Virus record (IMG/VR): IMGVR_UViG_3300044961_000507
Span: 1-52,114 of that record
Direction: 5' to 3' (one strand)
Length of the DNA stretch: 52,114 nt
Source: a virus
In this document: positions 1 through 52,114 of the stretch, one piece after another
How the letters are laid out: every line of letters begins with the position of its first letter
Position numbering within the stretch: position 1 is the first letter of the stretch
The notes under the pieces: model-generated
Databases searched by the model: none
What the model saw: the letters and a program-made list of their open reading frames with translations, nothing else
Told to the model about the DNA's origin: nothing
Position numbers and translations under genes: made by a program

Positions 1-174
1 TTTAACTTGCTTAATGAGGTCAAAGCAATCAATATTAGTTTTATTTCCAACATAAGCAGTAATTTTGGTCTCTAGACCAAAATTATATACAAATCTGGTT
101 TGTCCAAATATGTTGGCAAGAAGACCTTGCTGTTCTTCTGATGGGAATATTCTATATTTATATGCCTTTAACAC
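1..174 (-). CDS. tnpB: TnpB (IS200/IS605 accessory nuclease), N-terminal part, runs off the window
   Basis: Read leftwards from a GTG at 174-172, the frame stays open for 58 codons to the window edge. It begins VLKAYKYRIFPSEEQ and continues with RFVYNFGL, the standard opening of IS605 OrfB/TnpB (family form: LKAYKYRIYPNxEQ, then RFVYNxxL). TnpB is an RNA-guided, RuvC-type DNA nuclease encoded by the transposon; its catalytic residues lie outside this piece. The GTG start is chosen because it falls exactly where homologues begin (M/V-LKAYKYR). The start lies 9 bp after the stop of the preceding minus-strand gene, so the two are probably co-transcribed. The C-terminal part of a tnpB in the same orientation is at the other end of the window (52011-52114). 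Confidence 0.88.
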   Translation of the reverse strand, partial: MLKAYKYRIFPSEEQQGLLANIFGQTRFVYNFGLETKITAYVGNKTNIDCFDLIKQVK

Positions 175-183
175 TTATTTTTA

Positions 184-741
184 TTATATTTTATCTAAGG
201 AAATAATTTTTATTTTACTTGAAGAGTCATTTTTAAGTACAACTTCATTTTCTAACCAAACCATATCCCTTTGAAATAGGCTTCTTGGTATATCAATATT
301 ACTTTGTGGTGTCTTAGCTGTTATTAAATATAAGTTAGGTGTTTTAAGATGCCACATTTGTTGTTTAAAATCTGAATTATCTATTCTATCTGGATTTGTA
401 AACCAACTATAACCCAATTTGTTCTTATTGAAATCTTTTAGTTCATTTAAAACAACCATCCTGTATATTGTAACTTCATTTGGTATTCCATTAAAACCAT
501 CTGGAAATCTATCTTTTAATAATTTTTTAAATCCATCAACAACACACTTAGATGCTTCTTCTAAAGTATCACCGCAATCCCATGCACCACTTGAATCAAA
601 ATCATTCATCAAACCCCATTTAGCTATATCATACAAATCTTGTTCTGTTAAATCAGAAAAAGAATTATATTTATGAGGGTTAAAACTCAACTTAGAAAGT
701 TCCTCTTTAATTATTTGACTTATATACTTCTTTAAATCCAA
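184..741 (-). CDS. Putative mono-ADP-ribosyltransferase-like protein with a capsid-targeting-like N-terminus
   Basis: 185 aa, not firmly recognised. Three pieces match the R-S-E pattern of arginine-type ADP-ribosyltransferases in the right order: TIYRMV (Arg94), GYSWFTNP (residues 110-117, in the place of the STS strand) and WLENEVVL (Glu164-x-Glu166, the ExE turn). Phages such as T4 use such enzymes (Alt, ModA) to modify host RNA polymerase. The first 18 residues (LKKYISQIIKEEL) form an amphipathic helix with an IKE tripeptide, also seen in four other minus-strand proteins here. The start is a TTG at 741-739; no ATG is available. The gene sits between tnpB and tnpA of an IS605-type element, so it is either a passenger gene or was caught by the insertion. 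The fold call rests on motif order only. Confidence 0.5.
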   Translation of the reverse strand: MDLKKYISQIIKEELSKLSFNPHKYNSFSDLTEQDLYDIAKWGLMNDFDSSGAWDCGDTLEEASKCVVDGFKKLLKDRFPDGFNGIPNEVTIYRMVVLNELKDFNKNKLGYSWFTNPDRIDNSDFKQQMWHLKTPNLYLITAKTPQSNIDIPRSLFQRDMVWLENEVVLKNDSSSKIKIISLDKI

Positions 742-792
742 TTTGTTCGATTATAGATTAAATGTTATATCTGTAAATAGTCAAATTTTTTA

Positions 793-820
793 TAAAAGTT
801 TGTTTCTGTGAAAACTTTTA
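793..820. other. Hairpin upstream of tnpA
   Basis: A perfect 9-bp inverted repeat (TAAAAGTTT at 793-801 and AAACTTTTA at 812-820) with a 10-nt loop lies in the gap between the divergent ART-like and tnpA genes. It could be a regulatory structure or simply AT-rich chance; no run of T follows it directly. Confidence 0.35.
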
Positions 821-836
821 CAAAAAATTCTTAACT

Positions 837-1246
837 ATGCCAAAAAATCAAATTACACATCAACAAATCGCTCAAAGCATTATTTAAAGACACATATTAT
901 ATTTGCAGTAAAATATCGCAAACCACTATTGGTTGGTCATCTAAATGAAGATATGAAACAACTTCTTCAAAACATATCTGTTAATTCAGATTTTGAAATT
1001 GAGATAATGGAGTCGGATGTAAATCATATTCATTTTCTCATTCGCTATATCCCTCGTCTTTCAATTACTTCTATTGTTCGCAAGTTAAAACAAGAGTCAA
1101 CCTTTCACATTTGGCGTATGCATCGTACATTTTTATTAAATCAATTTTGGGTTGAAAAAACCTTTTGGTCTGATGGATATTTTGTTTGTTCAATTGGTGA
1201 GGCATCACCAGAAACCATTCGTCAATATATTTAAAATCAAGGTTAA
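837..1246 (+). pseudogene. tnpA: TnpA, Y1/HUH transposase of the IS200/IS605 family, two lesions
   Basis: The frame open from 812 encodes SNYTSTNRSKHYLKTHIIFAVKYRKPLL and onwards, the classic IS200-type TnpA start. The HUH motif is present (NHIHFLI, 1022-1042) and the C-terminus reads SPETIRQYI. Lesion 1: the natural ATG at 837-839 is out of frame; one more A in the run at 842-847 would give M-P-K-K-S-N-Y in frame. Lesion 2: the conserved Y-h-x-x-Q active-site motif is cut by TAA at 1232-1234, where GAA is expected. The next codons are N-Q-G then TAA (1235-1246), exactly the usual end (YIENQG). The protein would keep Tyr but lose Gln. The element is therefore probably immobile unless a TnpA is supplied in trans. 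Confidence 0.85.
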
Positions 1247-1272
1247 ATCATTACCATATTGGTCGCTTATAT

Positions 1273-1295
1273 CCCACAAGCTGAAGACTTGTGGG
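1273..1295. mobile_element. IS200/IS605 end hairpin (tnpA side, left end)
   Basis: Perfect 8-bp stem: CCCACAAG (1273-1280) and CTTGTGGG (1288-1295), loop CTGAAGA. It lies about 25 nt after the natural tnpA end, where TnpA of this family binds a subterminal hairpin. The hairpin at 51996-52018 has the same stem length, a near-identical loop and the same orientation, with compensatory changes in the stem. Similarity continues outside the stem (TTTTACG here, CTTCTACG there). The exact cleavage site cannot be fixed from one copy; it should lie within roughly 25 nt to the right. Confidence 0.8.
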
Positions 1296-1343
1296 TTTTA
1301 CGCTCCAAAATATAAAAACAAGAAGACATCATCAAGGGATTTG

Positions 1344-1475
1344 ATGAGCCCAGAACAAGCTAAGACAGCCCCTCAAAAACAAGAAGTAAAAAAAATAGGC
1401 TCTGGTAAGAATGATATTATAGAAAGAGCTGACCAAAAAGTTGTTGTTGAGGATGGAAGAGAGCTGTTAAAATAA
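1344..1475 (+). CDS. Small hydrophilic protein, or 3' remnant of a gene cut by the IS
   Basis: A 43-residue ORF starting MSPEQAKTAPQKQEV and ending DGRELLK. It is followed by the bidirectional terminator at 1493-1515, as expected for a real 3' end. The same frame is open further upstream (through YKNKKTSSRDL) towards the IS hairpin, so it could equally be the C-terminal tail of a longer phage gene whose front was separated by the insertion. No domain is recognised. Confidence 0.45.
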   Translation: MSPEQAKTAPQKQEVKKIGSGKNDIIERADQKVVVEDGRELLK

Positions 1476-1492
1476 AAAACTTTATAAAAAAG

Positions 1493-1515
1493 AAACCCGT
1501 CTTTATGACGGGTTT
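1493..1515. terminator. Bidirectional rho-independent terminator
   Basis: Stem AAACCCGTC (1493-1501) and GACGGGTTT (1507-1515) with loop TTTAT, T-rich on both outer sides. It separates the plus-strand ORF ending at 1475 from the minus-strand operon ending at 1503; the stop of the minus-strand gene lies in the loop. Confidence 0.85.
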
Positions 1516-2138
1516 TTTATTATTCCTTGTATATTTTTCATCTTCATCTTATTCAGCTCTTCATATTTATCTCCGAGCTTTCTATAAACAGTTACTATTG
1601 CATCTCCGCCTATTTTTATTTCAGCTGGTAATGCTATAATATCTCCGGGTTTTATTTCATTAATGCTTGTTCTTTGAACTTGAAACTGGTTGCCGTCTGC
1701 TATTTTCAATAAAACTGTTTCTGTGTTAGGAGTTTTTAGTTTTAAAGATTGATTTTTAGGAAACTCTTCATTTTTGAATTCTAATACTTCCTTATCTTTA
1801 AATACTGAATTTCCTTTACTTCCTAAATCTTGCAATTCCTTTTCAATACCATTTTTTATTTCTGATAGATACTCAGCTTTCTTTTTGTAAGCCTCTACCA
1901 ATTTAGATAAAGCGGATAATTGTTCTTCTTTTATTTGTTTTAATTGAACATAATCTTCTTTTTCTGTAGCAGTTTGTTCGTCTTTCTTTAATTTTTCCAG
2001 CCTCTTTTCATTAACTTGAATAAAACCTTCATCAATGTCTTTTATAACATTGTCTAAATGTTTGAAAGCCTGAGACTCGCTTAATAATCTCAGGCTTTCT
2101 TTTCTTATTAATTTTCTAAGTTCGCTGTAGTTTTCCAT
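1503..2138 (-). CDS. Coiled-coil, scaffold-like protein with a tagged N-terminus
   Basis: 211 aa from the ATG at 2138-2136, chosen because it follows the upstream stop directly (TAATATG), the usual coupling in this genome. A start five codons earlier is possible. Residues 1-23 (ELRKLIRKESLRLLSE) match the N-terminal tag shared with four other minus-strand proteins; LRKLIR is identical to the SprT-like protein at 51197. Residues 30-110 are a charged coiled coil, and the C-terminal third (IKPGDIIALPAEIKIGGDA) looks like a small beta domain. Last gene of the three-gene minus-strand operon. Function unknown; a head core, scaffold or internal head protein is plausible from the tag and neighbours. 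Confidence 0.75.
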   Translation of the reverse strand: MENYSELRKLIRKESLRLLSESQAFKHLDNVIKDIDEGFIQVNEKRLEKLKKDEQTATEKEDYVQLKQIKEEQLSALSKLVEAYKKKAEYLSEIKNGIEKELQDLGSKGNSVFKDKEVLEFKNEEFPKNQSLKLKTPNTETVLLKIADGNQFQVQRTSINEIKPGDIIALPAEIKIGGDAIVTVYRKLGDKYEELNKMKMKNIQGIIKNPS

Positions 2139-2139
2139 A

Positions 2140-2934
2140 TTATTCTTCGTCATCAGAAAGTCTAGCTAATCTCTTCATTCTGTTTAACTCTTCGTTAAGA
2201 GCTTGAACTCTTTTTGTTTCTAAGCCTTCAGATAATAGATTACCTTTATTTCTTTTTGATTCTGCTATAACTTCTTTAGAGGTTTTTTTACCTTCGTTAA
2301 CATGAGTATCTTTTTTCATGTTATCATTTACATCGTCTGCATCAGTCATTTGAGCAACGCTTTCACCTTCAAGTGGCTCTTCAACGCTTTCATGAACATC
2401 ATCAGCAGTTACAATATTTCCTTCTTCGTCTTGATGAGTTTCTTTGTATCCACCTTCTTCGATTTCTTCATCTTTTTCTTCTTCTTCACCTTCTTCGCCA
2501 CCTACTACAATTGAATCCTCTTCATCTTCTGGTTTGTCTTCAATGGTAACATCTTCAAATTCACCAGATTCATCTTCACCTTCTTCATCTTCTACTTCTC
2601 CAGCTAATTTCATATCAATAGCTTTTCCGATTTCAGCAAATTTAGCTTCAAATTCACCCATTTCTTCTTCCATTTCATCATCTTCTAAAAGATGTGAACC
2701 TTTCTTTTCAAATTTTGGTTTATGTTGAACACCTGGCTCTAATCCAGTTGCTGAACTGGTTTTCATTTCACCAGAAGCTTCTACTTCATCGAGTTTCTCT
2801 TCTTCTTCCATTTTTTGAAGTTCCTCGTTGATTTGGTTAATTCTGCTTTTGATAGCCATTTTCTTTTTCATTCTGGCATATTCTTCAGCAATAATTTCTT
2901 TAACCTGAGAAAGTTTTATTTCTTTTTTTTCCAT
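2140..2934 (-). CDS. Very acidic prohead-core/scaffold-like protein
   Basis: 264 aa. After an N-terminal tag (LSQVKEIIAEEYARM) and a short basic helix, residues 50-210 are extremely rich in Glu and Asp with low complexity, and the last 40 residues (ALNEELNRMKRLARL) are basic and helical. The layout of amphipathic start, acidic core and basic tail resembles prohead core and scaffold proteins such as T4 gp67/gp22 in character; homology is not claimed. It contains several L/I-x-E tripeptides (IAE at residues 14-16, VIAES, LLSEG), the cleavage pattern of T4 prohead protease. Middle gene of the operon. Plus-strand serine-rich frames opposite it are mirror artefacts of Glu/Asp codons. Confidence 0.75.
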   Translation of the reverse strand: MEKKEIKLSQVKEIIAEEYARMKKKMAIKSRINQINEELQKMEEEEKLDEVEASGEMKTSSATGLEPGVQHKPKFEKKGSHLLEDDEMEEEMGEFEAKFAEIGKAIDMKLAGEVEDEEGEDESGEFEDVTIEDKPEDEEDSIVVGGEEGEEEEKDEEIEEGGYKETHQDEEGNIVTADDVHESVEEPLEGESVAQMTDADDVNDNMKKDTHVNEGKKTSKEVIAESKRNKGNLLSEGLETKRVQALNEELNRMKRLARLSDDEE

Positions 2935-2954
2935 ATTATGGGTGTTTTTATTAG

Positions 2955-3317
2955 TTATTTAGATGGGTTATTTGTAAAAGATTCAAGTTGCTTTCTTAAA
3001 GCTTCATTTTCTGCTTTAAGACGATTGATTTCATTTTCCTCATTAAGCTTTTCAGCATCTTCTGTTGAAGCCATTTCTCTTTCTAGTTCTGCTATATGAG
3101 AAATGTTTTGGAAATCATTAACAAAACCAGTTTTTGTTTTGTTAGAAACATCATTTGGGCTTTGGAAGCCGAAACTGCCAATCATTCCAATGTGCTCATT
3201 AAGAGTTTTAAGCTCATTGTTGTATTTCTTTACTTCTTCGTAAATTTCTCTTTTTCTTTTGATTTTAAGAGCTTCTTCAACAATTGCCTTTTTTATTGCT
3301 TTTTTGCTAAGTTCCAT
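2955..3317 (-). CDS. Small coiled-coil protein with a tagged N-terminus
   Basis: 120 aa, first gene of the minus-strand operon. It starts MELSKKAIKKAIVEEALKIK, the shared tag with an I-x-E tripeptide. The middle segment (HIGMIGSFGFQSPNDVSNK) is glycine-rich. Residues 75-112 (LEREMASTEDAEKLNEENE and onwards) form a heptad-like coiled coil. A T tract plus TATTTAT signal lies 15 nt before the ATG. No family is recognised; by company it may be a head-assembly or internal protein. Confidence 0.75.
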   Translation of the reverse strand: MELSKKAIKKAIVEEALKIKRKREIYEEVKKYNNELKTLNEHIGMIGSFGFQSPNDVSNKTKTGFVNDFQNISHIAELEREMASTEDAEKLNEENEINRLKAENEALRKQLESFTNNPSK

Positions 3318-5407: not shown

Positions 5408-6060
5408 TGACAAATTTTGAAAACATTGTTGAAAGAGCAATGGCCAAAGTTGGAAGTCCACCAATGGCATTTGAAATAGATTCCGATACTTTAGAGTTGC
5501 TTTATAAGGATGCTCAAAATAAGTATTACCTTTATAAGGAATTAAGTAAAAAGACAGAAGAAACTTTAACTAGATTAAAAGAAGATTGGATTGAATCTTA
5601 TTTTCAATCTAACGTAAAAGAAGCACTTGGTAATGTTCGTGGTAAGTTTTCTGGAGAAGCAAATATTCCCGGAGCAACATTAACAATAGAATATAAACAT
5701 CTTTTAAAAGATGCTAAGTCTGAAAAAAAAGCTTTAGTAAAAATGTTGTTAGATGATAATTTTACAGGAGAATCTGAGGAAGATAAAGAAGAATTAATCT
5801 TAATAGCAATCTATATTAATGTTGGTAATATGGATGGATATGATGTTGGTGAATTCATGAAAAAAGTTGCAAGTCAATTAAATGAAAATTATCCTTCATA
5901 TATAAAGCATTACATTTTTCCAGTTAGAAATCAGGATACTAAAGTAGATTTAATTTATCCTGTTTCTTTTGGCAAAAACAAAGAAAAGTTAATGGACATG
6001 TTAGATTCAATAAAGGATATGGACGAAAGAATAAAAAAATTCTACTCAGATGAAAAATAA
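5404..6060 (+). CDS. Unknown protein, possibly virion-associated (neck-like N-terminus)
   Basis: 218 aa. The start FENIVERAMAKVGSPPMAF and IDSDTLELLYKDAQNKYYLY is reminiscent of the N-terminal segment of T4-like neck and head-completion proteins (gene number plus 'alpha-beta-D..L...I.DAL..Y'); this resemblance is weak. A soluble helical middle follows, then a strand-rich end (SYIKHYIFPVRNQDTKVDLIYPVSFG). No enzyme motif is visible. It is embedded between glycosyltransferase genes and overlaps both neighbours (4 nt and 11 nt), so it is co-translated with them; it could be the glycosylated substrate or a chaperone for it, but this is only inference from position. Confidence 0.6.
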   Translation: MMTNFENIVERAMAKVGSPPMAFEIDSDTLELLYKDAQNKYYLYKELSKKTEETLTRLKEDWIESYFQSNVKEALGNVRGKFSGEANIPGATLTIEYKHLLKDAKSEKKALVKMLLDDNFTGESEEDKEELILIAIYINVGNMDGYDVGEFMKKVASQLNENYPSYIKHYIFPVRNQDTKVDLIYPVSFGKNKEKLMDMLDSIKDMDERIKKFYSDEK

Positions 6061-6793
6061 AATTAAAGTAATAACCCCATTTTATAATCCCGGAGAATTT
6101 TTAGAGAATTGCGTTTCTTCTTTAATTACTCAGCGTTATGATAACTTTCAGGTAATTTTTGTGGATGATTGTTCTACAGATGGTTCTTACGATAAATTAC
6201 CTAAGGATGATGATAGATTTAAAATAATTAGAAATGATATAAGAAAAACGGCTTTAGAAAATATACATGATGCAATAATGAATCATTGTGATAAAGATGA
6301 TATTGTTGTTCTTGTTGATGGGGATGATTGGTTACCCAACAAAGGAGTTTTAGGCTATATAAATGATTTTTTTAATCAGACAAATTGTTGGATAATGTAT
6401 GGCCAAGCTAGTTGGACTGATGGTAGAAAGGGTATAGCTAGACCATATGAAAACGAGCAAGAATTTAATAATATGAGAAAAAAACCTTTTTATATTTCTC
6501 ATATTAGATGTTTCAGAGCAGGACTATACCAAAAAATAAAAGAACAAGACCCTAATTTCTCTTGTCTAAAAGATAAACAGGGAGAGTTTTATAAAATGAC
6601 ATATGATGTTGCTATTATGTATCCAATTATGGAATTAGCAGGTTTTGAAAAAACTAAATATAATGATACTGTCTTATATATTTACAATAGACATAACCCT
6701 ATATCAGATGATAAAGTAAATTGGCAATTACAATATTCAATACACCAAGAAATAAATAACAAGACTAGTTTTAAAAAAATAGAAAATTACTAA
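6050..6793 (+). CDS. Family 2 glycosyltransferase
   Basis: 247 aa. Typical GT2 start: IKVITPFYNPGEFLENCVSS, then FQVIFVDDCSTDGSYDKL with the nucleotide-binding aspartates. The DxD equivalent is IVVLVDGDDWLPNKG near residue 86. A C-terminal acceptor segment follows. Transfers a sugar from a nucleotide donor; acceptor unknown. Overlaps the previous ORF by 11 nt and the next by 1 nt. Confidence 0.9.
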   Translation: MKNKIKVITPFYNPGEFLENCVSSLITQRYDNFQVIFVDDCSTDGSYDKLPKDDDRFKIIRNDIRKTALENIHDAIMNHCDKDDIVVLVDGDDWLPNKGVLGYINDFFNQTNCWIMYGQASWTDGRKGIARPYENEQEFNNMRKKPFYISHIRCFRAGLYQKIKEQDPNFSCLKDKQGEFYKMTYDVAIMYPIMELAGFEKTKYNDTVLYIYNRHNPISDDKVNWQLQYSIHQEINNKTSFKKIENY

Positions 6794-7713
6794 TGAGCTC
6801 ACATTCCTTTCAATTACTAAAAAATAAAATCGAATCAAGAAAAATTGATTATCAAAAGATAAAAGAAAATTCTATTGTTAGTCTTTTAAATGATGACGAG
6901 TATGATATTAATGTTATAATAGGTGTTCGTGGAAGAGGAGATTTTTTACAGCCAGTTATAAACTCTTTTCATAAAGCAGCTTTGTATTATAATAATAAGG
7001 ATTCTCAAAAGCATTTTACAATTACAATAGTAGAACATAGTGAAAATACAGAACACAAAGAAATGCTTGATGGAAAGGAAAATTATATGTGGACTCCCGG
7101 AAACATTGTAGAACAATATAGCAGGAGTTTTGCTTATAATTTTGGTGTAAAATACGGACCAAAAGCCAAATATTATATTCTTCATGATGTAGATATTTTA
7201 GTTAAAGAAAATTTCTATGAAGAGATTTATTTAAATCTAAAAGATAATAAATGTTTACAGACATATGGCGGAAGAAGAGTTTTATATATGTCTCAAGAAC
7301 TAACCTCAAAGGTTATTAAGGGAGAGGTTGATATAAACACTTTGAGTGAAAATTCACCAAACGTAACTCCCCCAATGTATAATGGAGCTCTTGCTTTAGG
7401 TTCAAAAGGTGGTTCAATTTTAGTTGAAAGAGATTTTTATTATGAAATCGGTGGTTTTGACCCAGAACTTTTTTGGGGATATGCAGCAGAAGACCAAATA
7501 TTTTGGGATAAAGCAATTACGCTTCTAGGTGAAGTGGCTTATGCAGATAGCCCGTCAATAGACATGTTTCATATGTGGCATCCCCCAACTCATACAACAA
7601 ATCCATTGTTATATGAAATGGAAAATTACATGCTTCAATTTAGAGGTATGAATAAGAAAAATAGAATGAATTTTATTAACATAAAAAAAGAGCTTTTTAA
7701 AGATGAACAATAA
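6793..7713 (+). CDS. Galactosyltransferase-type GT-A glycosyltransferase
   Basis: 306 aa. After a short leader, residues 37-130 form the donor domain (INVIIGVRGRGDFLQPVINS), with the DxD motif in YYILHDVDILVKENF near 128-134. Residues 195-235 (GGSILVERDFYYEIGGFDPE and WGYAAEDQIFW) match the Glyco_transf_7C acceptor domain of GalNAc/galactosyltransferases and chondroitin-type synthases. It is therefore likely to transfer Gal or GalNAc, or a similar sugar. Part of the overlapping glycan operon (1 nt before, 11 nt after). Confidence 0.85.
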   Translation: MSSHSFQLLKNKIESRKIDYQKIKENSIVSLLNDDEYDINVIIGVRGRGDFLQPVINSFHKAALYYNNKDSQKHFTITIVEHSENTEHKEMLDGKENYMWTPGNIVEQYSRSFAYNFGVKYGPKAKYYILHDVDILVKENFYEEIYLNLKDNKCLQTYGGRRVLYMSQELTSKVIKGEVDINTLSENSPNVTPPMYNGALALGSKGGSILVERDFYYEIGGFDPELFWGYAAEDQIFWDKAITLLGEVAYADSPSIDMFHMWHPPTHTTNPLLYEMENYMLQFRGMNKKNRMNFINIKKELFKDEQ

Positions 7714-8593
7714 AACATTTATATTTACAGAAGCTTTTAATTGTGGTCTAATATTAAAAAAATGTTTAGAATCATTTTTTAAATATCATCCAGATACTAT
7801 AGTTAATGTTTTTGGTACCTTTAAAGACTTTAAAGAATTAGGTAAGTTTAAAAATGTAGAGTATCATGAGTTAAGTGAAGACAGAGAATTAACAGAATGT
7901 TTTAAGCATGGACATTTAGGGACTGCACACATAGGTGCTAAAGTGATAAAAGAAATCTCCAAGGGATATGATTATATAATTCATTTCGATAGTGATGTTA
8001 TTTTTAGAAAAGAATCATTATCTTTGTTGACTAATAAAATAGATGAGGGCTATGATTTAATAGGTCCAAGAAGATGTTATAAAAATAATATGAATGGAAG
8101 AGCTGATTTATCTAATTTAAATGATGTTAGCCAAACATATTTTTATGCATTTAATAAAAATAAAATTGGAGATTATGATTTTACGACACTTAGAAATATG
8201 ATAGTCGGATTTCATAACCCATTAAACCACCCTATATTAGATTATTTTGACCCTGTTTCTTTTGATATTTTAAAAAATGGAGGTAAAATTTTCTTTTTAA
8301 ATGTTGACCAAGTTGGCGGGTTAACTGAAGATGGTAATAGAAAAAACAATTTTCCAGAGTTAAATTCAGATATGGATTTTGGAGAAAATATTATACATTT
8401 TGCTGGGGTAGGCTCTGGTATGAAATTTTATTTTAAGGGTACTGAAAATGCGGCAAAATCTTATGCTGATTGGGCTCTTAAAAGATTTGCTCTTTATTAT
8501 AAAACTTTTTATGATAAAGATGTAGAAAATGTGAGTGTAGATGAAAATATTTATAAACTATTAATAAACGAATTACAATATGAGTGTGTTTAA
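7703..8593 (+). CDS. GT-A-type glycosyltransferase
   Basis: 296 aa. TFIFTEAFNCGLILKKCLES opens a donor-binding fold, and the DxD motif appears as YIIHFDSDVIFRKESL near residue 93. The central part (LIGPRRCYKNNMNGRADL) and the end (IIHFAGVGSGMKFYFKG) fit an acceptor domain of the GT8/GT2-like group, but the exact family cannot be settled by eye. Overlaps the preceding and following genes. Confidence 0.75.
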   Translation: MNNKTFIFTEAFNCGLILKKCLESFFKYHPDTIVNVFGTFKDFKELGKFKNVEYHELSEDRELTECFKHGHLGTAHIGAKVIKEISKGYDYIIHFDSDVIFRKESLSLLTNKIDEGYDLIGPRRCYKNNMNGRADLSNLNDVSQTYFYAFNKNKIGDYDFTTLRNMIVGFHNPLNHPILDYFDPVSFDILKNGGKIFFLNVDQVGGLTEDGNRKNNFPELNSDMDFGENIIHFAGVGSGMKFYFKGTENAAKSYADWALKRFALYYKTFYDKDVENVSVDENIYKLLINELQYECV

Positions 8594-9239
8594 TCAAATA
8601 ATTCAATTTGGAGATTTGTGTTTCGACATAGGTGCCAACAATGGGAATAAAGCTCAAAAGATGATTAATCTTGGAGCTAAAGTTATATGTTTAGAGCCAC
8701 AAAACTCCTGCCAAGGGAATTTAAATAGTAAATTTAAAGACTCAGACTCTGTTATTATTATTCAAAAAGCTGTTGGGGCTGAAGTGGGTATAGGTAAGAT
8801 TTTTGTATCTGCTGCTCATACTTTATCAACAATGTCTGAAAATTTTATAGCAGAAACACAAAAAGAAAGATTTGCTGGAGTTAATTGGAACAACACAGAA
8901 CCAGTTGAAATTACAACTTTAGACATTTTGATTAATACTTATGGTCTTCCTAAATATTGTAAGATTGATGTTGAGGGATATGAGAAAGAAGTTTTAAAAG
9001 GATTAAGTCAACCTATACCATATTTAAGTGTAGAATTTACACCAGAGCTGAAAGCAAACACTTTTGAATGTATGGATATTTTAAAAAATTTAGGAAGTTA
9101 TAAATATAATTATTCTGAAGGAGAAACTCACGAATTTAGTTTTAATGAGTGGATTGGATATGATGAGATGAAAGAATTTCTTTCTAAAAATAATGATTTT
9201 AAAACCTCTTTTGGTGATTTATACGCAAAGCTAGACTAA
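8580..9239 (+). CDS. FkbM-family methyltransferase 1
   Basis: 219 aa. SAM-binding motif LCFDIGANNGNKAQKMINLG (residues 13-32), acidic loop VICLEPQNSC (about 36-45) and the FkbM core KIDVEGYEKEVLKGL (about 130). FkbM proteins O-methylate sugars or polyketides. Its place inside a glycosyltransferase operon indicates methylation of a glycan. Starts 14 nt before the upstream stop. Confidence 0.92.
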   Translation: MSVFNQIIQFGDLCFDIGANNGNKAQKMINLGAKVICLEPQNSCQGNLNSKFKDSDSVIIIQKAVGAEVGIGKIFVSAAHTLSTMSENFIAETQKERFAGVNWNNTEPVEITTLDILINTYGLPKYCKIDVEGYEKEVLKGLSQPIPYLSVEFTPELKANTFECMDILKNLGSYKYNYSEGETHEFSFNEWIGYDEMKEFLSKNNDFKTSFGDLYAKLD

Positions 9240-9240
9240 T

Positions 9241-9927
9241 ATGATTTCTATTGCTATACCTGTATATGAAATGAATTCTTCTGGGGTAGAGTTTTTAAAA
9301 CTCAGTCTTTCTAAAATTTGTCAACAAAATTTTAATGACGTAGAAGTTGTAATTTCTGACCATAGCAAAGATGATGAAATAAAAAATGTTTGTGACGCAT
9401 TTCAAGGTTTACTTAAAATTGTATATTTAAAAAACGAAGAAAAAAGAGGTAGTTCTTCAGCAAATTTAAATAATGCTTTAAAGCATTGTTCGGGTGAAAT
9501 AATAAAAATTTTAATGCAAGATGAATATTTGTATGATGAAGACGCATTAGAAAAAATAAAACAAATTTTTGATGAAGATATTAATACAAACTGGTTAATA
9601 ACAAGTTGTGTATTTGGCACTACACCAGATGTTATTAAAGGAAGCATGAACCCAAAATATACCGAAAAAATAGTTAACGGAATAAATACAATAGGAAGTC
9701 CAAGCGTTTTAACTATTAGGAACTCGAATATTGAATATTTCAACGAAGATTTATTGTGGGTTATGGATTGTGAATACTACAAAAGGTTATATGATAAATT
9801 TGGGTCACCTTCTGTTTTAGAGAAGAACTGTGTTTTTATTGTTCAACATCATAATCAAGTTAGCTCTATTTTATCAGAAGAATTCAAAAAGAATGAAGTA
9901 AAATTATTAGAAGAAAAATTTAAATAA
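9241..9927 (+). CDS. Family 2 glycosyltransferase
   Basis: 228 aa. ISIAIPVYEMNSSGVEFLKL, DVEVVISDHSKDDEIKNVC and SSSANLNNALKHCSGEIIKI form a GT2 donor domain. The place of DxD is taken by LMQDEYLYDEDAL (QDE form, also used in GT2 members). Shorter than the average GT2. Begins 1 nt after the FkbM stop and overlaps the next start (TAATGA). Confidence 0.88.
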   Translation: MISIAIPVYEMNSSGVEFLKLSLSKICQQNFNDVEVVISDHSKDDEIKNVCDAFQGLLKIVYLKNEEKRGSSSANLNNALKHCSGEIIKILMQDEYLYDEDALEKIKQIFDEDINTNWLITSCVFGTTPDVIKGSMNPKYTEKIVNGINTIGSPSVLTIRNSNIEYFNEDLLWVMDCEYYKRLYDKFGSPSVLEKNCVFIVQHHNQVSSILSEEFKKNEVKLLEEKFK

Positions 9928-10628
9928 TGAATTTAAAAGAATATATAGAAAAACCATTAGAGATTCAGAATGAGTTATTGCACTATCTTTCTGATATAAA
10001 TGACTTGGTAATATTTGATGTGGGGGCCTGCGAAGGAGAAGAAACAATAAAATATTCAAGACTCTTCCCAAATTCAAAAATTTATTCATTTGAGCCTATA
10101 CCAGGTAATTATAAAAAAGCAGTTCAAAACCTTTCTGAATATAATACAACAAATGCGTCTTTATATGAAATAGCTTTAAGTAATTCTACTGGAGAAGCTG
10201 ACATTTTTGTTTCAGAAGGACACCCAGATTATTTACAAAAAACATCTGAATGGGATTATGGAAACAAATCAAGCTCTTTATTACCAGCCCAAGAATTAAC
10301 AAATTACTATAAATGGTTAAATTTAAGTAATACAATAAAAATAAAAACATTAACTTTGCATGATTTCTGTACTATTAACGAGATTAAAAAAATAGATTTT
10401 ATGCACATGGATGTTCAAGGCGCTGAATTAATGGTACTAGAAGGGGCAAAAGATTTTTTAGATAAAATTAAAATGATTTGGCTAGAAGTTGAGATGGTAG
10501 AATTATATAAGGGTCAACCTTTGAAAAATTCTGTAGTACAATTTTTAAATAATAATAATTTTGAAATAATTAAAGATACATGTACAACTGTATCTGGAGA
10601 TATATTGTGTATTAAAAAAGATAAATAA
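9927..10628 (+). CDS. FkbM-family methyltransferase 2
   Basis: 233 aa. SAM motif VIFDVGACEGEETIKYSRLF (about 28-47), YSFEPIPGNYKKAVQNL and the FkbM core FMHMDVQGAELMVLEGAKDF (about 151-170). Likely a sugar O-methyltransferase in the same pathway. It differs strongly from the other two FkbM proteins of the island, so recent tandem duplication is unlikely. Confidence 0.92.
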   Translation: MNLKEYIEKPLEIQNELLHYLSDINDLVIFDVGACEGEETIKYSRLFPNSKIYSFEPIPGNYKKAVQNLSEYNTTNASLYEIALSNSTGEADIFVSEGHPDYLQKTSEWDYGNKSSSLLPAQELTNYYKWLNLSNTIKIKTLTLHDFCTINEIKKIDFMHMDVQGAELMVLEGAKDFLDKIKMIWLEVEMVELYKGQPLKNSVVQFLNNNNFEIIKDTCTTVSGDILCIKKDK

Positions 10629-10629
10629 A

Positions 10630-11202
10630 ATGGAACAAGTATTAAACAACTATCAAAGTCTGTGTAATCAACCATCAGACATTAATGAACATCTTCCAGT
10701 TTTAAAAAAATATGGAGAAGATTGTGAACATATAACAGAAATGGGCATAAGATACATAGTATCTTCTTGGGCATTTTTAGCTGCAAAACCAAAGAAAATG
10801 GTTTGTTATGATATTCTAACTGGATTAAATATGAACACTTTTAATTCTAGATTAGGAGAATTATTTGAAGCAGCAAAAAGAATAGGTGTTGATTTTACAT
10901 TTCATCATGCCGATGTTTTAAGTGTAGAAATAGAAGAGACTGACCTACTTTTCATAGATACATATCATGAATATAATCAAATAAAACAAGAGCTTGCTTT
11001 ACATGGAAATAAAGCTAGAAAATATCTTGTATTCCATGACACTACAACTTTCGGTGAACATGGAGAAACATTCAAGCAGCCAAACACAGTAGGCATTTGG
11101 CCTGCTATAGTTGAATTTATGTTGCAAAACCCTCATTGGGAAATTGCCGAAAAATTAACTAATAACAATGGTTTAACAGTTTTAAAAAGAAACAATGGAT
11201 AA
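10630..11202 (+). CDS. Class I SAM-dependent methyltransferase (CmcI-like)
   Basis: 190 aa. The SAM motif is replaced by HITEMGIRYIVSSWAFL. The later motif LLFIDTYHEYNQIKQEL (about 99-115) and YLVFHDTTTFGEHG match the CmcI/Methyltransf_24-like group, in which the Asp and His residues bind a metal or the acceptor. Starts 1 nt after the FkbM stop and overlaps the TylF-like gene by 8 nt. Substrate not known; a sugar is likely from context. Confidence 0.75.
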   Translation: MEQVLNNYQSLCNQPSDINEHLPVLKKYGEDCEHITEMGIRYIVSSWAFLAAKPKKMVCYDILTGLNMNTFNSRLGELFEAAKRIGVDFTFHHADVLSVEIEETDLLFIDTYHEYNQIKQELALHGNKARKYLVFHDTTTFGEHGETFKQPNTVGIWPAIVEFMLQNPHWEIAEKLTNNNGLTVLKRNNG

Positions 11203-11974
11203 TAAATTAAAATTAGAATTCTTAAAAAGAATTTTGACAGACACAGTTGGAGATGAAAAAATTAGAAATGATTTTTTCAATCAAGGTATTTTCCCAGATG
11301 AAAACACTATAGCAAATATTTTAAACACAGCAGTAGAACCAAAAAGGTTGGAAGGTTTGGATTGGCCTCAGAGAGCTCATACCATGATAGGATTAAAGCG
11401 TTTAAATAATTTACATGAATGTTTGGATTATGTAAGAGAAAATAATATTCCTGGTGATTTTATAGAAACTGGAGTATGGAGAGGTGGCGCTTGTATTTTT
11501 ATAAAGTATTATAACAATCTTTATAATATGAATAGAAAGGTTTTTGTATCTGATTCTTTTGAAGGATTACCTGCACCAGATGCTAATAAATATCCAGAAG
11601 ACGCTGGAGATATACATCATACTATTGCATTCTTAAAAGTATCCCTAGAAGAGGTTAAATCTAATTTTAGCCTTTATAAAGTTTTGGATGATAATGTAAT
11701 ATTCTTAAAAGGTTGGTTTAGTGATACTCTTAAAGATAATCAACAAATAGGTCCTATAAGTATATTAAGATTTGATGGAGATATGTATAGTTCTACTATG
11801 GATGTTTTAGAAAACATTTATAGTAAAGTTGTAAAAGATGGCGTTTTAATTGTTGACGATTACTGCTTGCCTAATTGCAAAAAAGCTATAGCTGACTTTA
11901 GAAGCAGTCATCAAATAACAGATGATATAAAAGTAGTAGACACCTGTGGAATTTATTGGTATAAAAGAAATTGA
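11195..11974 (+). CDS. TylF/MycF-family sugar O-methyltransferase
   Basis: 259 aa, usual TylF length. Motifs: RAHTMIGLKRLNNLHECLDY, GDFIETGVWRGGACIFI (SAM motif), FVSDSFEGLPAPDANKYPED, ILRFDGDMYSSTMDVLENIY and VLIVDDYCLPNCKKAIADFR with the metal-binding aspartates. The family methylates deoxysugar hydroxyls in a Mg-dependent way (tylosin, mycinamicin). This is the most specific hint that the island builds a methylated deoxyhexose-containing glycan. Confidence 0.93.
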   Translation: MDNKLKLEFLKRILTDTVGDEKIRNDFFNQGIFPDENTIANILNTAVEPKRLEGLDWPQRAHTMIGLKRLNNLHECLDYVRENNIPGDFIETGVWRGGACIFIKYYNNLYNMNRKVFVSDSFEGLPAPDANKYPEDAGDIHHTIAFLKVSLEEVKSNFSLYKVLDDNVIFLKGWFSDTLKDNQQIGPISILRFDGDMYSSTMDVLENIYSKVVKDGVLIVDDYCLPNCKKAIADFRSSHQITDDIKVVDTCGIYWYKRN

Positions 11975-11976
11975 TT

Positions 11977-12612
11977 ATGGACAAAAGAGTTTTGGTTTAT
12001 TGTGGCTTGCACAATGGTGATGGTTTAGAAACTGAAATTAATAAATCAAATTATGATTTGGTTTATGGTTTTGATGCAAATCCAGATAAAATTGAAATAT
12101 GTAAAAATAGATTTACAGATTCAGAAAAGTTTAAGTTCTTTAATAATGCATTAACTGATAAAGGTGGTGAAGATGTTACTTTTAATGTGTATGAAAAGTG
12201 GGATGCGTCTTCTTCATTGTCTGAACTTAATCCTGAATATGGTCATGTAAAAAACGATAATGGTGTTTTACATGGAACTACAACAAAAAAAGTTACTGTA
12301 AAATCTTTAAACCTTGGAGAGTTTCTAAAGAAAGAAGGAATTGAAAAGGTGGATATGTTGGTTACAGACCTACAAGGATTTGACTTAACAGTAATAAAAA
12401 CATTAGAAGATTATATAAGAAATCAGAAAGTTGGAAAAATACTATCTGAGGTAGAATGGGATGGAAAACCAGCTATTTACCAAAATGATAAATCAAACAA
12501 ATTTTCAGATTTCAATAAGTTTTTTGGTGGATTATATAGGCAGGTTTGGCATCTTCCGGGCTCTGAAGATTGGTGGGAAACAGACATGGTATTTTTACCT
12601 GTAAAAAAATAA
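11977..12612 (+). CDS. FkbM-family methyltransferase 3 (divergent)
   Basis: 211 aa from the ATG at 11977, 2 nt after the TylF stop; a TTG two codons earlier is less likely. The SAM motif is shortened to VYCGLHNGDGLETEI, followed by YGFDANPDKIEICKNRF and the FkbM core DMLVTDLQGFDLTVIKTLED. C-terminal residues 190-210 (VWHLPGSEDWWETDMVFLP) cap the fold. Likely methylates the same glycan. Confidence 0.85.
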   Translation: MDKRVLVYCGLHNGDGLETEINKSNYDLVYGFDANPDKIEICKNRFTDSEKFKFFNNALTDKGGEDVTFNVYEKWDASSSLSELNPEYGHVKNDNGVLHGTTTKKVTVKSLNLGEFLKKEGIEKVDMLVTDLQGFDLTVIKTLEDYIRNQKVGKILSEVEWDGKPAIYQNDKSNKFSDFNKFFGGLYRQVWHLPGSEDWWETDMVFLPVKK

Positions 12613-12614
12613 GC

Positions 12615-13409
12615 ATGAAACAAATCATTAAAAGCAATATAGAACCAGAGTGGCCTCTTATTGAGCTTGAATATGAAAAGCCTATCGAGCTTTTTATAGA
12701 TAGTTTTATGGGGTTTGATAGCAGAAGAGATACTTATAAAATACTTTATGTAAAAGAAGCTGAAGCTATTAGTGGTTTTAAAAAGCAAGTTTTAGAACAT
12801 TATGATAAAGTTGATTTAGTTTTAACTTACGATGAAGAAATTTTAGTAAAATGTCCAAATGCTAAATTTATGCCTTTTGGAACATCTTGGATTCATGATT
12901 ATAAATTTGAAAAAAAATATTTCATGGTATCACATCTTACTGGTCATAAAGAAATGACTGAAGGGCATGTTTTAAGGAAGAAGATACATTACAAGCAAGA
13001 TAGAATAAAAATTTTAAAAGACTTCTATATAAGCAAGTTTGGTGGAGTTGAGAATTTCAACGCCAATCCTATTTTAGGAGAATCAAAAGAGCCTTTGTTT
13101 AAATCTCAGTTTCATATCTGCATAGAAAACTCAAAGCAGAAAAATTACTTTACTGAAAAAGTAGTAGATTGTTTTATTACAAAAACAGTTCCGATTTACT
13201 GGGGATGTCCTAATATAGGAGATTTTTTTGATGTAAAAGGGATTATGATTGTTGATAATTTTGAAGACATTATTAAAGCATGCAACTCACTGAATCCTAA
13301 TTCTTATGAAAGCATGCGTGAGTCAATAGAAAGGAACTATGAAACTGCATTAAAATATGCAGACCTGAAAGAGAACCTAAAAAATAAACTAATAGAATGC
13401 CTAAAATAG
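12615..13409 (+). CDS. GT10-like (fucosyltransferase family) glycosyltransferase
   Basis: 264 aa from the ATG at 12615; upstream codons overlap the previous gene and are not protein-like. The C-terminal donor domain carries FHICIENSKQKNYFTEKVVD and ITKTVPIYWGCPNIGDFF, the alpha-1,3/4-fucosyltransferase signature (family: ENS..DYVTEKF..AL..G.VPVY.G.PN). Those enzymes use GDP-fucose. The next gene makes the GDP-fucose precursor, which supports the call. Ends in TAG, rare in this window. Confidence 0.88.
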   Translation: MKQIIKSNIEPEWPLIELEYEKPIELFIDSFMGFDSRRDTYKILYVKEAEAISGFKKQVLEHYDKVDLVLTYDEEILVKCPNAKFMPFGTSWIHDYKFEKKYFMVSHLTGHKEMTEGHVLRKKIHYKQDRIKILKDFYISKFGGVENFNANPILGESKEPLFKSQFHICIENSKQKNYFTEKVVDCFITKTVPIYWGCPNIGDFFDVKGIMIVDNFEDIIKACNSLNPNSYESMRESIERNYETALKYADLKENLKNKLIECLK

Positions 13410-13420
13410 GGTAAATAATA

Positions 13421-13451
13421 TTTTGTAATTCAAATTATATTATTAAATTTG
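13421..13451 (+). promoter_or_regulatory. Bacteroidetes-type promoter before gmd
   Basis: TTTTG at 13421-13425, 18 nt, then TAAATTTG at 13444-13451, followed by GTGC. This fits the Bacteroidetes -33 (TTTG) and -7 (TAnnTTTG) elements. The start codon is 22 nt downstream. It suggests transcription by host RNA polymerase with the host primary sigma factor. Confidence 0.6.
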
Positions 13452-13472
13452 TGCTTGCAAAATACTACCCTG

Positions 13473-14492
13473 ATGAAAACGGCACTTATTACTGGTATAA
13501 CCGGGCAAGATGGTTCTTACTTAGCAGAACTTCTTTTAGATAAAGGTTATATCGTTCATGGCATAATAAGAAGGTCCTCTTCTTTTAATACAAGCCGAAT
13601 AGACCATATTTATAACAATAAAAATCTTCATTTGCATTACGGTGATGTTGTAGACCCTTTAAATATTACCAATCTAATATCTACAATACAACCAGATGAA
13701 ATCTATAATCTAGCTGCTCAATCACACGTAAAAGTTTCTTTTGAACAACCTTATTATACTGGACTGGTAGACGCACTGGGTACAATTACAATACTAGAAG
13801 CAATTAGAACACATTGTCCTAAGGCTAGATTTTATCAAGCATCTACATCTGAATTATATGGCGGTATGAGGTATAATATGCCTAAAACTGGGTATACAGA
13901 AAAATCAGATTTCCATCCAAGAAGCCCATATGGTGTTGCTAAAATTTATGGTTTTTGGGCTGTTAAAAACTACCGAGAAGCCTATGGTTTATATGCTTGT
14001 AATGGTATATTATTTAACCACGAAAGTCCTAGAAGAGGAGGTACTTTTGTAACTAAAAAGGTTATTGATTTTTTTGTAAACAAATACAAAAACAATAAAG
14101 GCGATGTTCTTTATATAGGAAATTTAGATGCTAAAAGAGATTGGGGTTATGCTAAAGAATATGTAGAAGGAATGTGGTTAATGCTTCAGCAACAGGAGCC
14201 AGAAGACTTTGTTTTGGCTACAAATAAAGTTTATAGTGTTAGAGATTTAATAGAAACTACTCTTAAATACTTTGGCAAAGAAATTCACTGGGATGGTGAA
14301 GGTGAAAGTGAAGAGGGGTATGATAAAGAAACTGGGGAGCTAATTGTAAAAGTTGATAAAAAGTATTTTAGACCGTCAGAAGTTGAATTGTTACTTGGTG
14401 ATGCTTCAAAGGCTAGAAAAAAACTAAAATGGGAAGCTAAAGTAACATTTGAAGAATTAGTAAAAATAATGATTGAAGAGGAAAATGGATAA
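13473..14492 (+). CDS. gmd: GDP-mannose 4,6-dehydratase
   Basis: 339 aa from the ATG at 13473. Rossmann motif [20 protein letters not shown] (GxxGxxG), substrate and NADP loop [36 protein letters not shown], catalytic [20 protein letters not shown] (YxxxK) and [16 protein letters not shown] are all diagnostic of GMD. It converts GDP-mannose to GDP-4-keto-6-deoxymannose, the precursor of GDP-fucose and GDP-rhamnose. Slightly shorter than bacterial GMD (about 370 aa). No GDP-fucose synthase is present here, so the last step needs a host or distant phage enzyme. Preceded by a host-type promoter. Confidence 0.97.
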
Positions 14493-15537
14493 AAAAACAA
14501 TATTAGTTACTGGTGTTCTTGGTTATCTTGGTAGTCACACTGCTGTAAGGCTACTTGAAAAAGGATATAGGGTGATAGGAGTGGATAATGAATCAAGAGG
14601 AATGCGTTCAAATCTTGAAGGAATACAAAAAATATGTAATGGTTATAATTTCCAATGCATAATTGCTGATATAAGAAATCCAAATTTTCTTGAATATGTT
14701 GATGGAGAAAATATAGATGCTGTAATTCATTTTGCTGGCTATAAGAGTGTGAGTGAATCTCAGGACATGCCTCTTGAATATTATGATAACAATGTAGCTG
14801 GGACTATAAATCTTCTTTCTGAGATGCGTAATCATAATATTAACAAAATAGTTTTTTCATCATCTGCTACAATATATGGGGATGCAAAAGGAATTGTATC
14901 TGAAAATGATGATGTAAATTTATGTCCTGTAAGTGTTTATGGAGAAACTAAAAAAACATGTGAAGATATATTAAAGAACATTGCAAATTCAGACGTTCAC
15001 TCAGATTGCCCAAGTTTTCCAAGCTTTAAGGCTATTTCTCTTCGTTATTTTAATCCAATAGGTTTTCATGAAAGTGGATTGTTGTGTGAAAATATTCAAA
15101 TGGCTGAAAACATAATACCTTCTTTAATAAGGGTTTTAAAGAAAGAAAAGGAAATTTTTTCTGTTTTTGGAAATGATTATAATACTCCAGATGGTACTGC
15201 TATACGTGATTACATAGATATTGATGATTTGGTAGACGCTCACATTAAAGCTGTAGAAGAGCTTATTTATGGCAAGATTAAATATAGTGTGTTTAATATT
15301 GGTTCTGGTTCAGGATATTCTGTATTAGATGTTCTTAAGGCTTTTGAAAAGTCTGGTCATAAAATACCATATAACTTTTCTCCTAGAAGGGTTGGAGACA
15401 TAGAAATAATATGTGCAGACACTAATTTGGCTAAAAAATTATTGGCTTGGGAGCCTAAAAAAAATATAACAGATAGCGTATCTAGCATTATTAATTACCT
15501 AGAAAAAAATAAAATAATCAACAAAAATTTGTTTTAA
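14485..15537 (+). CDS. galE: UDP-glucose 4-epimerase (GalE-like)
   Basis: 350 aa from the ATG at 14485, overlapping gmd by 8 nt; a start four codons upstream is possible. NAD motif [20 protein letters not shown], substrate loop [46 protein letters not shown], catalytic [15 protein letters not shown] (YxxxK) and [15 protein letters not shown] are typical of GalE. Interconverts UDP-Glc and UDP-Gal (or the GlcNAc/GalNAc pair). It would feed the galactosyltransferase-type enzyme at 6793. Confidence 0.96.
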
Positions 15538-51196: not shown

Positions 51197-51964
51197 CTAT
51201 TGAGGCTTTATTTCAATAGTTCTTATTATTTCCCCTGAGGTTATTAGTCTATCTATAAATTCATCTGACGCTTGAGCATATGAAATTGATGAAACAGCTT
51301 TTTTCTTAGAAGGAAACCTCATTAATTCAGGGTCATTACTTTTTATATAGGTCAGATTTACAAATCTATATTTACCCCTGTTGGTAATATTTTGAAACAT
51401 TCTTTCAACATTACTATGTACACGGTCAAACATGTTAGGACTCATAACATTTATCATGTTTTTATATCTGTTAGTATTCATAACTAAGGCTATTACAGTT
51501 GGTGAGTTTGTTGTAAATTTAGGATTTATATCAGCCTCTTTAAAGTTAGCAGTTATAGTCACATCAAACCCAAGACCCATGCTATTTATCCTGTTCATTT
51601 CTTTTTGGAATTGCCAGCCATGACCCACATTCATATTTTGTTGAATAAGCTTTACGTGAATCATTTCATGCGCTAATACATCTTTGAAGTTTTTATATGT
51701 TATGTTTAGGAATTGTGACATAGCCAAATGTACAACACGCCAGTCGTCAAAAGGTGAGTTTCTGTATGCTCTCACAACTCCGTGAGCACTTTTTCTTTTA
51801 TTCCATTTCATAGGGACATACTTGAGTTGACCACCAAAAAGCAGTTTATTTAATTTATCAAATTCATGCTGAAGGTCAATATCATCAAAGTTAACGATTT
51901 CATCATCTGTGTGCTCTTTGATTTCATTCATCAATGTTTCCCTTATCAGTTTTCTTAGGTTCAT
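51197..51964 (-). CDS. SprT-like zinc metalloprotease with a capsid-targeting-like N-terminus
   Basis: 255 aa from the ATG at 51964-51962. The frame stays open upstream for 12 more codons, but these read IS-derived sequence. The SprT signature is complete: DVLAHEMIHVKLIQQ (His99-Glu100-x-x-His103) and GHGWQFQKEMNRI (His115, third zinc ligand), after DDIDLQHEFDKLNKLLFGGQ. SprT/Spartan proteases cleave DNA-bound proteins. The first 15 residues (NLRKLIRETLMNEI) carry the shared tag with an I-R-E tripeptide. C-terminal residues 150-255 are unrecognised. Stop is TAG. The insertion of an IS605 element just upstream has probably replaced its promoter. Confidence 0.85.
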   Translation of the reverse strand: MNLRKLIRETLMNEIKEHTDDEIVNFDDIDLQHEFDKLNKLLFGGQLKYVPMKWNKRKSAHGVVRAYRNSPFDDWRVVHLAMSQFLNITYKNFKDVLAHEMIHVKLIQQNMNVGHGWQFQKEMNRINSMGLGFDVTITANFKEADINPKFTTNSPTVIALVMNTNRYKNMINVMSPNMFDRVHSNVERMFQNITNRGKYRFVNLTYIKSNDPELMRFPSKKKAVSSISYAQASDEFIDRLITSGEIIRTIEIKPQ

Positions 51965-51995: not shown

Positions 51996-52018
51996 CCCAT
52001 TAGCTAAAGACTAATGGG
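51996..52018. mobile_element. IS200/IS605 end hairpin (tnpB side, right end)
   Basis: Perfect 8-bp stem CCCATTAG (51996-52003) and CTAATGGG (52011-52018), loop CTAAAGA. On the minus strand the tnpB stop codon TAG lies in the first stem arm, then TAGTTCAC follows the hairpin, a common ending in this family. Loop and flanks match the hairpin at 1273-1295. In TnpB systems the guide RNA (omega/reRNA) is made from this end and continues into the flank, here the start of the SprT-like gene. Confidence 0.82.
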
Positions 52019-52114
52019 CTTCTACGTTGCAAGCACATGGTATCCCATCACTTTGTGCAACGCTGGACTGGTTCCTCAATCCAAATTTCTTTATATTTAT
52101 TGCTGCATTAACAT
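52011..52114 (-). CDS. tnpB: TnpB, C-terminal part, enters from the window edge
   Basis: 33 complete codons plus TAG on the minus strand: VNAAINIKKFGLRNQ, ending DGIPCACNVEAH. (D)xNAAxNI is the last conserved RuvC motif of TnpB; the codon before Val is cut by the window edge (xAT, consistent with Asp). The zinc-finger and the other RuvC motifs are outside. Direct joining to the tnpB start at 1-174 would be out of frame and lack about three quarters of the protein, so a middle part is missing. Confidence 0.85.
   Translation of the reverse strand, partial: VNAAINIKKFGLRNQSSVAQSDGIPCACNVEAH

Follow-up and report, generated by a model that had tools for sequence, protein, structure and literature searches.

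What do five otherwise unrelated proteins of an uncultured phage share at their beginnings, and what might this shared start be for? The question is raised by a 52-kb fragment of viral DNA with 30% GC, the 52,114-nt IMG/VR record IMGVR_UViG_3300044961_000507 (hereafter the window), where an earlier examination of the letters (the sequence-only reading) had noticed a common hydrophobic-I-x-E stretch at the start of five minus-strand proteins and had proposed that it is a capsid-targeting and prohead-protease signal. All five starts are indeed present, and our comparison suggests that this common N-terminus is probably a head-loading tag, similar in function to the capsid-targeting sequence (CTS) of phage T4 and cut by the prohead protease. 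The five open reading frames (ORFs) are the following, some of them being conserved in two related contigs (G003 and G005):

184..741 (-), protein of 185 aa, carried as cargo by an IS200/IS605 element; reads MDLKKYISQIIKEELSKL from 741, with a TTG start codon
1503..2138 (-), 211-aa protein, helical over a long part and with beta strands after it (AlphaFold2 model, mean predicted local distance difference test score, pLDDT, of 52); reads MENYSELRKLIRKESLRLLSE from 2138
2140..2934 (-), strongly acidic 264-aa protein, scaffold- or prohead-core-like; reads MEKKEIKLSQVKEIIAEEYARM from 2934
2955..3317 (-), 120-aa helical protein, adjoining the acidic protein in the window, G003 and G005; reads MELSKKAIKKAIVEEALKI from 3317
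51197..51964 (-), SprT-like metallopeptidase (Pfam PF10263, E=2.5e-12); reads MNLRKLIRETLMNE from 51964

As read from the letters, I-x-E occurs in four of these starts; in the fifth, that of 1503-2138, residues 19-21 are L-S-E, so that the T4-type L/I-x-E pattern is satisfied by all five. To avoid the circularity of our initial models, which had been seeded by eye from window, L002 (another contig) and immuto (a Flavobacterium phage) proteins, we trained a position-specific model on the immuto seeds and their matches in the genomes LR756508, G004 and G006, excluding the window and its near relatives. With this independently trained model, the five ORFs ranked 1 to 5 among the 53 scored in the window (19.0, 16.4, 11.8, 10.9 and 8.6), and the next ORF reached 6.0. 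At the threshold of 8, only one of 363 internal segments of the window matched (Fisher p=1.5e-4 versus N-termini), and leave-one-genome-out models gave 5 of 53 N-termini against none of the 363 internal segments. Composition-preserving shuffles of the N-termini yielded a mean of 0.33 matches instead of the 5 observed. The ORF caller was simple and some start codons may be wrong. The tags are:

Tag 1, 688..741 (-), residues 1-18 (MDLKKYISQIIKEELSKL) of ORF 184-741, rank 2 of 53
Tag 2, 2076..2138 (-), residues 1-21 (MENYSELRKLIRKESLRLLSE) of ORF 1503-2138, best score of the window (19.0), with L-S-E at the tag end
Tag 3, 2869..2934 (-), residues 1-22 (MEKKEIKLSQVKEIIAEEYARM) of the acidic protein 2140-2934
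Tag 4, 3258..3317 (-), residues 1-20 (MELSKKAIKKAIVEEALKIK) of ORF 2955-3317
Tag 5, 51923..51964 (-), residues 1-14 (MNLRKLIRETLMNE) of the SprT-like protein, rank 3 of 53

The tag extends well beyond the window. Relatives of the window baseplate protein gp6 were found in G003 (a 372-kb contig, 62% identity), G005 (62%) and the fragment G002 (65%); those of LR756508, a phage of 484 kb, and of immuto are more distant. A genome-wide search for the pattern, as the sequence-only reading had advised, revealed N-terminal enrichment in six relatives: 32 of 691 N-termini against 6 of 2765 internal segments in LR756508 (p=2e-17), 24/470 against 9/2235 in G003 (p=3e-12), 10/267 against 1/1158 in G006 (p=4e-7), 6/80 against 1/523 in G005 (p=3e-5), 8/218 against 3/981 in immuto (p=1e-4) and 7/174 against 3/621 in G004 (p=1e-3). 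In these genomes and the window, shuffled N-termini produced roughly 13- to 26-fold fewer matches, and the enrichment was also strong at the 39.6% GC of LR756508. The tag was not enriched at the N-termini of T4 or of G002. Searches by tblastn with short consensus peptides of the tag retrieved matches only in immuto and LR756508, so that this method is unfit to survey all phages. We found no publication describing the tag in a search that did not extend to subscription literature.

The consensus can be written K-x-x-L-[RK]-x-[IL]-I-[KR]-E-E-[IL]-x-x-[ILV]-[LF]-x-E, or roughly as [L/I][R/K]x[I/L]I[R/K]EE[I/L]xx[I/V]LxE. The match to the model begins mostly at residues 1-8 of the carriers, and 64 of 84 carriers have E at the core position. 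A second hydrophobic-hydrophobic-x-E site, at tag positions 14-17, was also enriched (hydrophobic residue at column 14, p=3e-6, and at column 15, p=5e-11; E at column 17, p=4e-6), with columns 15 and 17 both lying outside the trained columns.

What follows the tag is, by contrast, extremely diverse. Once the tag was removed, 82 carriers sorted into 68 unrelated body families, of which 58 had a single member, and on these grounds we rejected tandem paralogues that have conserved their N-terminus; the bodies of the five window carriers are mutually unrelated, in agreement with the sequence-only reading. We counted functional classes as orthologues of annotated immuto proteins. No tag was present on tail (0/91), glycan (0/24) or head shell and packaging (0/35) orthologues, and it occurred on two of six scaffold orthologues. 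Nor is the motif spread over many cytoplasmic replication proteins, a distribution that the sequence-only reading had named as evidence against its proposal: among 78 orthologues involved in replication, nucleotide metabolism and related functions there was a single match, a thymidylate-kinase ORF which we treat as a mis-called start because the annotated start (35569) comes after the match. The recognisable bodies resemble injected effectors more than replication enzymes. They include a zeta-toxin/AAA_33 kinase in LR756508 (E=8e-9) and proteins with the HExxH motif, found in 7 of 83 tagged versus 22 of 2142 untagged proteins (p=6e-5; several in G003), a tagged set that includes paralogues or orthologues and one 98-aa protein. 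In the window, the assignment of 51197-51964 to SprT-like metalloproteases was upheld (47.1 bits for PF10263, curated cut-off 25.6; HExxH present as AHEMIH); a longer ORF is possible from 52000, its first 12 residues deriving from the right end of the adjoining insertion sequence (IS). By contrast, the likeness of 184-741 to ADP-ribosyltransferases (ART), seen by eye in the motifs IYRM, YSWFT and ENEVV, was not confirmed: Pfam, PHROGs and PDB sequences gave no ART match and its AlphaFold2 model was of low confidence (pLDDT 38), this model and that of 1503-2138 (pLDDT 52) being too weak for fold comparison. Searches for close relatives of 1503-2138 and the SprT-like protein, and of 184-741 in bacterial genomes and annotated phages, gave nothing usable. 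A G003 protein (58173-58925) with a weak KptA-like match (E=0.008) has a tag-like start scoring below the threshold.

The tag is associated with T4-type head genes. Homologues of gp20, gp21 and gp23 were identified in each relative with a head module (G003, LR756508, G004, G006, G007 and immuto), those of the protease gp21 with E values of 1e-17 to 1e-24; core and shell are of the gp22/gp23 type in the same phages. The major capsid proteins (MCP) of the relatives have, 46-63 residues in, a site built like those of the tags, hydrophobic-hydrophobic-x-E, with A, S or V as the next residue; the predicted cleavage sites are QIVSE^A, HMLNE^V, QLLKE^A, QLITE^S, QLVKE^A, YLLSE^A and QLISE^A, where the MCP would be cut in analogy to T4 gp23. 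In addition, the scaffold protein encoded between protease and MCP has an end resembling R[MWF][KQ]KLAG[IL] in each of the seven relatives compared, and one tagged protein of the window has such an end:

2140..2190 (-), scaffold-type C-terminal motif ELNRMKRLARLSDDEE of the acidic protein, like R[MWF][KQ]KLAG[IL]

With a model of seven scaffold C-termini from other phages, this end scored 20.0 and was the sole C-terminal match of the window, which supports the scaffold-like character attributed to 2140-2934 by the sequence-only reading. The likeness does not extend to full-length homology: phmmer with the immuto scaffold retrieved G003:165440-166804 but nothing among the window ORFs. The acidic protein is instead homologous to G003:176610-177374, a gene separate from that scaffold, and thus differs from the immuto_204-family scaffolds, with which it has the C-terminal motif in common and some orthologues of which start with a tag-like helix. 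Its tag is conserved in the homologues G003:176610-177374 and G005:2980-3678. The neighbouring 2955-3317 likewise has homologues in G003 and G005 (E=1e-8 and 4e-10), the former retaining I-hydrophobic-x-E-A (QAILNEALTIKRK). In G003 the homologues of both genes adjoin and share their strand with the head module, whose protease, scaffold and MCP genes are 9-15 kb away (9-13 kb for the homologue of the acidic protein itself), and the pair is followed, there as in the window, by a plus-strand cluster of sugar genes. Across six genomes, proximity to the head module is commoner among tagged than among untagged genes (odds ratio 3.7, p=2e-6), a signal that comes mainly from LR756508, with immuto nominally significant. 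Finally, a second N-terminal motif, R-M-Q-K-L-A-G-I, matches the scaffold C-terminus and stands near the start of a few small proteins (immuto 25061 and 111675; G003 37308 and 250293; G005 54639; G004 69808 and 109785; G011 47341). This recurrence suggests that cargo may imitate scaffold ends.

In T4, internal proteins enter the core through the affinity of their propeptides, for which ten residues are enough, and gp21 cleaves after L/I-X-E (PMC9026906). Like the T4 CTS of IPI-III and Alt, which is cut by gp21, the tag is a short N-terminal peptide on unrelated proteins, packaged in the case of T4, that ends in L/I-x-E, and the relatives that bear it and have a head module encode a gp20/21/23-type head. 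It differs in length (18-22 residues, versus about 10 for the T4 CTS, MKTYQEFIAE), in sequence and in the number of proteins that bear it, up to ~30 in a genome. On the tag model, scores range from -6 to -22 for T4 internal proteins and from -3.6 to -22 for the set of T4 ipI, ipII, ipIII, alt, gp22, gp24, gp67 and gp68, against the threshold of 8. Identity with the T4 CTS was thus rejected by sequence, and our best reading is that the tag would work like a CTS without being one by sequence. The part of the original proposal that stood comprises an N-terminal tag on unrelated proteins, acidic core- or scaffold-like proteins among them, that recurs genome-wide in the relatives but not on replication and tail proteins, with L/I-x-E-type sites and a gp21-type protease in the relatives. 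A generic N-terminal hydrophobic-hydrophobic-x-E pattern had eight matches in T4, seven of them head proteins (ipII, ipIII, gp2, gp68, gp21, gp22 and gp24), so that such sites are usable as a clue. Other systems show partial likeness. The propeptides of phiKZ, 201phi2-1 and SPN3US, removed by gp175/gp245, are alike in cleavage after E, in multiple candidate sites per propeptide and in the packaging of ejection proteins; they differ by the S/A-x-E specificity of phiKZ and the mostly long propeptides of SPN3US, and have not been described as one tag common to dozens of unrelated proteins. The DarA/Ddr proteins of phage P1 and the “polyvalent” effectors resemble what we propose in that effector, ART and metallopeptidase domains are head-loaded and injected; they are different proteins, and the parts of the sources available to us mention no common N-terminal tag of ~20 residues.

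The tag, its N-terminal enrichment, the modularity of its carriers, their association with T4-type head genes, the match with MCP sites and the scaffold-type end of one carrier can be joined in a mechanism that draws on T4 by analogy. An amphipathic helix of ~18-22 residues would dock its carrier on the scaffold or the prohead core during head assembly, perhaps as a mimic of the N-terminus of core proteins bearing this helix. A gp21-type prohead protease would then cut after hydrophobic-hydrophobic-x-E, at I-I-K/R-E and/or I/V-L-x-E, and the untagged body would stay inside the head and be delivered into the host cell with the DNA.

Several observations weigh against this head-loading interpretation. 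The T4-headed relatives Mel-JY01, G007 and RM378 exhibit no tag enrichment, and the CTSs of T4 itself do not match the motif; with T4 also lacking enrichment, a general tag of every T4-headed phage was rejected. The window contains no capsid, portal or protease genes, and proximity to the head module was not significant singly in the remaining four genomes, including G003, G006 and G004. A P-loop protein of the AAA_33 family (G003:308384-309085) has a strong copy of the tag at its C-terminus (LKKFAGLKEVRRIIRKTINELFD) and not at its N-terminus, which a purely N-terminal model does not predict. Most carriers are without known domain, and for many bodies there is no known function. Lastly, a conserved small protein of the baseplate operon, encoded just upstream of gp25, has a tag-like N-terminal helix at ~50 of 73 independent loci (~50 contigs, IMG/VR loci L016-L091), and its family is also present in immuto, G006, G007 and G011. 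Either this family is head-loaded too or the helix also serves elsewhere, so that the helix is possibly not exclusive to head cargo. The claim that the motif marks virion-packaged proteins genome-wide was therefore too strong in view of the T4-headed relatives devoid of enrichment, the other motifs of immuto and this gp25-upstream helix, although a genome-wide N-terminal tag does exist in the relatives. We consider the head-loading reading well supported comparatively, though not proven.

The gp25-upstream family also lends substance to an alternative in which the tag is a general docking or oligomerization helix that attaches to some common partner in the phage, be it the baseplate, an assembly complex or a different protein, with no head address and no cleavage, L/I-x-E being a mere part of the amphipathic helix. 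We find this unlikely, since the tag is absent from annotated tail orthologues, is borne by proteins of scaffold type and has its genes concentrated near those of the head, and since such a helix accounts neither for the enrichment of a second L-x-E beyond the trained columns nor for MCP sites of the same form. Amphipathic basic N-terminal helices can also have targeting or regulatory roles, and further N-terminal motifs coexist in immuto; nevertheless, a signal directing proteins elsewhere (for example to the membrane, to a chaperone or to host machinery) or an N-terminus that regulates late translation appears highly improbable, as it leaves the scaffold link, the head clustering and the match with capsid-protein cleavage forms unexplained, and tag codons change mostly synonymously between the window and L002. 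Chance resemblance among the Lys/Ile/Glu-rich N-termini of AT-rich genomes, conceivable for a window of 30% GC whose motif was first chosen by eye, is hardly credible and was rejected by the composition-preserving shuffles, the internal segments and the independent training, as well as by the strong enrichment in LR756508.

For most genes of large uncultured phages no role has been assigned, and if the tag does mark head-packaged proteins, the sequence would yield a list of what enters the cell as infection begins, such as proteases, kinases and possible ADP-ribosyltransferases. It would also supply a loading signal for phages besides T4, with a testable prediction in the cultured phage immuto. 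A more general proposal, to which we give somewhat less than even chances, is that a sizeable group of T4-headed phages, uncultured and often huge, packages up to 20-30 unrelated effectors per virion type by a degenerate helical code imitating the ends of its scaffold or core proteins, with an exchange of tagged effectors among phages that extends to IS605 cargo. On this proposal, the sequence of the tag would suffice to predict which effectors are injected by phages not yet cultivated.

One of the five tagged genes lies inside a transposable element, which occupies both ends of the window:

1..1318, IS200/IS605-type element, its DNA 86% identical to L002 along 1322 bp that include tnpA, the cargo gene and the start of tnpB
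1-174 (-), N-terminal part of tnpB
about 812-1234 (+), tnpA-like frame
about 1273-1295, left-end hairpin of the IS
51996..52114 (-), C-terminal part of tnpB (residues 350-382) and right-end hairpin, directly upstream of the SprT-like gene

The right-end tnpB fragment has 91% aa identity over residues 350-382 and 93% DNA identity over 127 bp. As the window ends correspond to the N- and C-terminal parts of tnpB, the assembly broke at this repeat; the G003 contig likewise begins inside a tnpB. The tagged gene 184-741 is placed between tnpA and tnpB, and L002 has an 87% identical homologue (8986-9543) in the same arrangement, so that, as IS605 cargo in two contigs, a tagged protein can travel between phages by a transposable element. 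Between both copies, the tag differs by 9 synonymous and 4 non-synonymous changes, the start codon being among the latter, which indicates that the peptide rather than the RNA has been kept. The tnpA frame of the window, unlike the L002 copy, has no ATG, GTG or TTG between the upstream stop and 929, and this copy may be inactive.

Elsewhere in the window, the plus-strand region 6050-15537 contains a long run of genes which, by reading the sequence, resemble glycosyltransferases, methyltransferases and sugar epimerases, with a G003 counterpart from 178570 onwards. The protein L002:2888-3673 (-) has an N-terminal stretch of a similar general kind to the tag (LIISEEEQKEIKKLYNLSEQ), and four small immuto proteins (1803, 103806, 117631 and 118632) carry a third N-terminal motif, F-D-L-K-K-F-L-V-E-N-K-L-T-x-N-S, with L-x-E.

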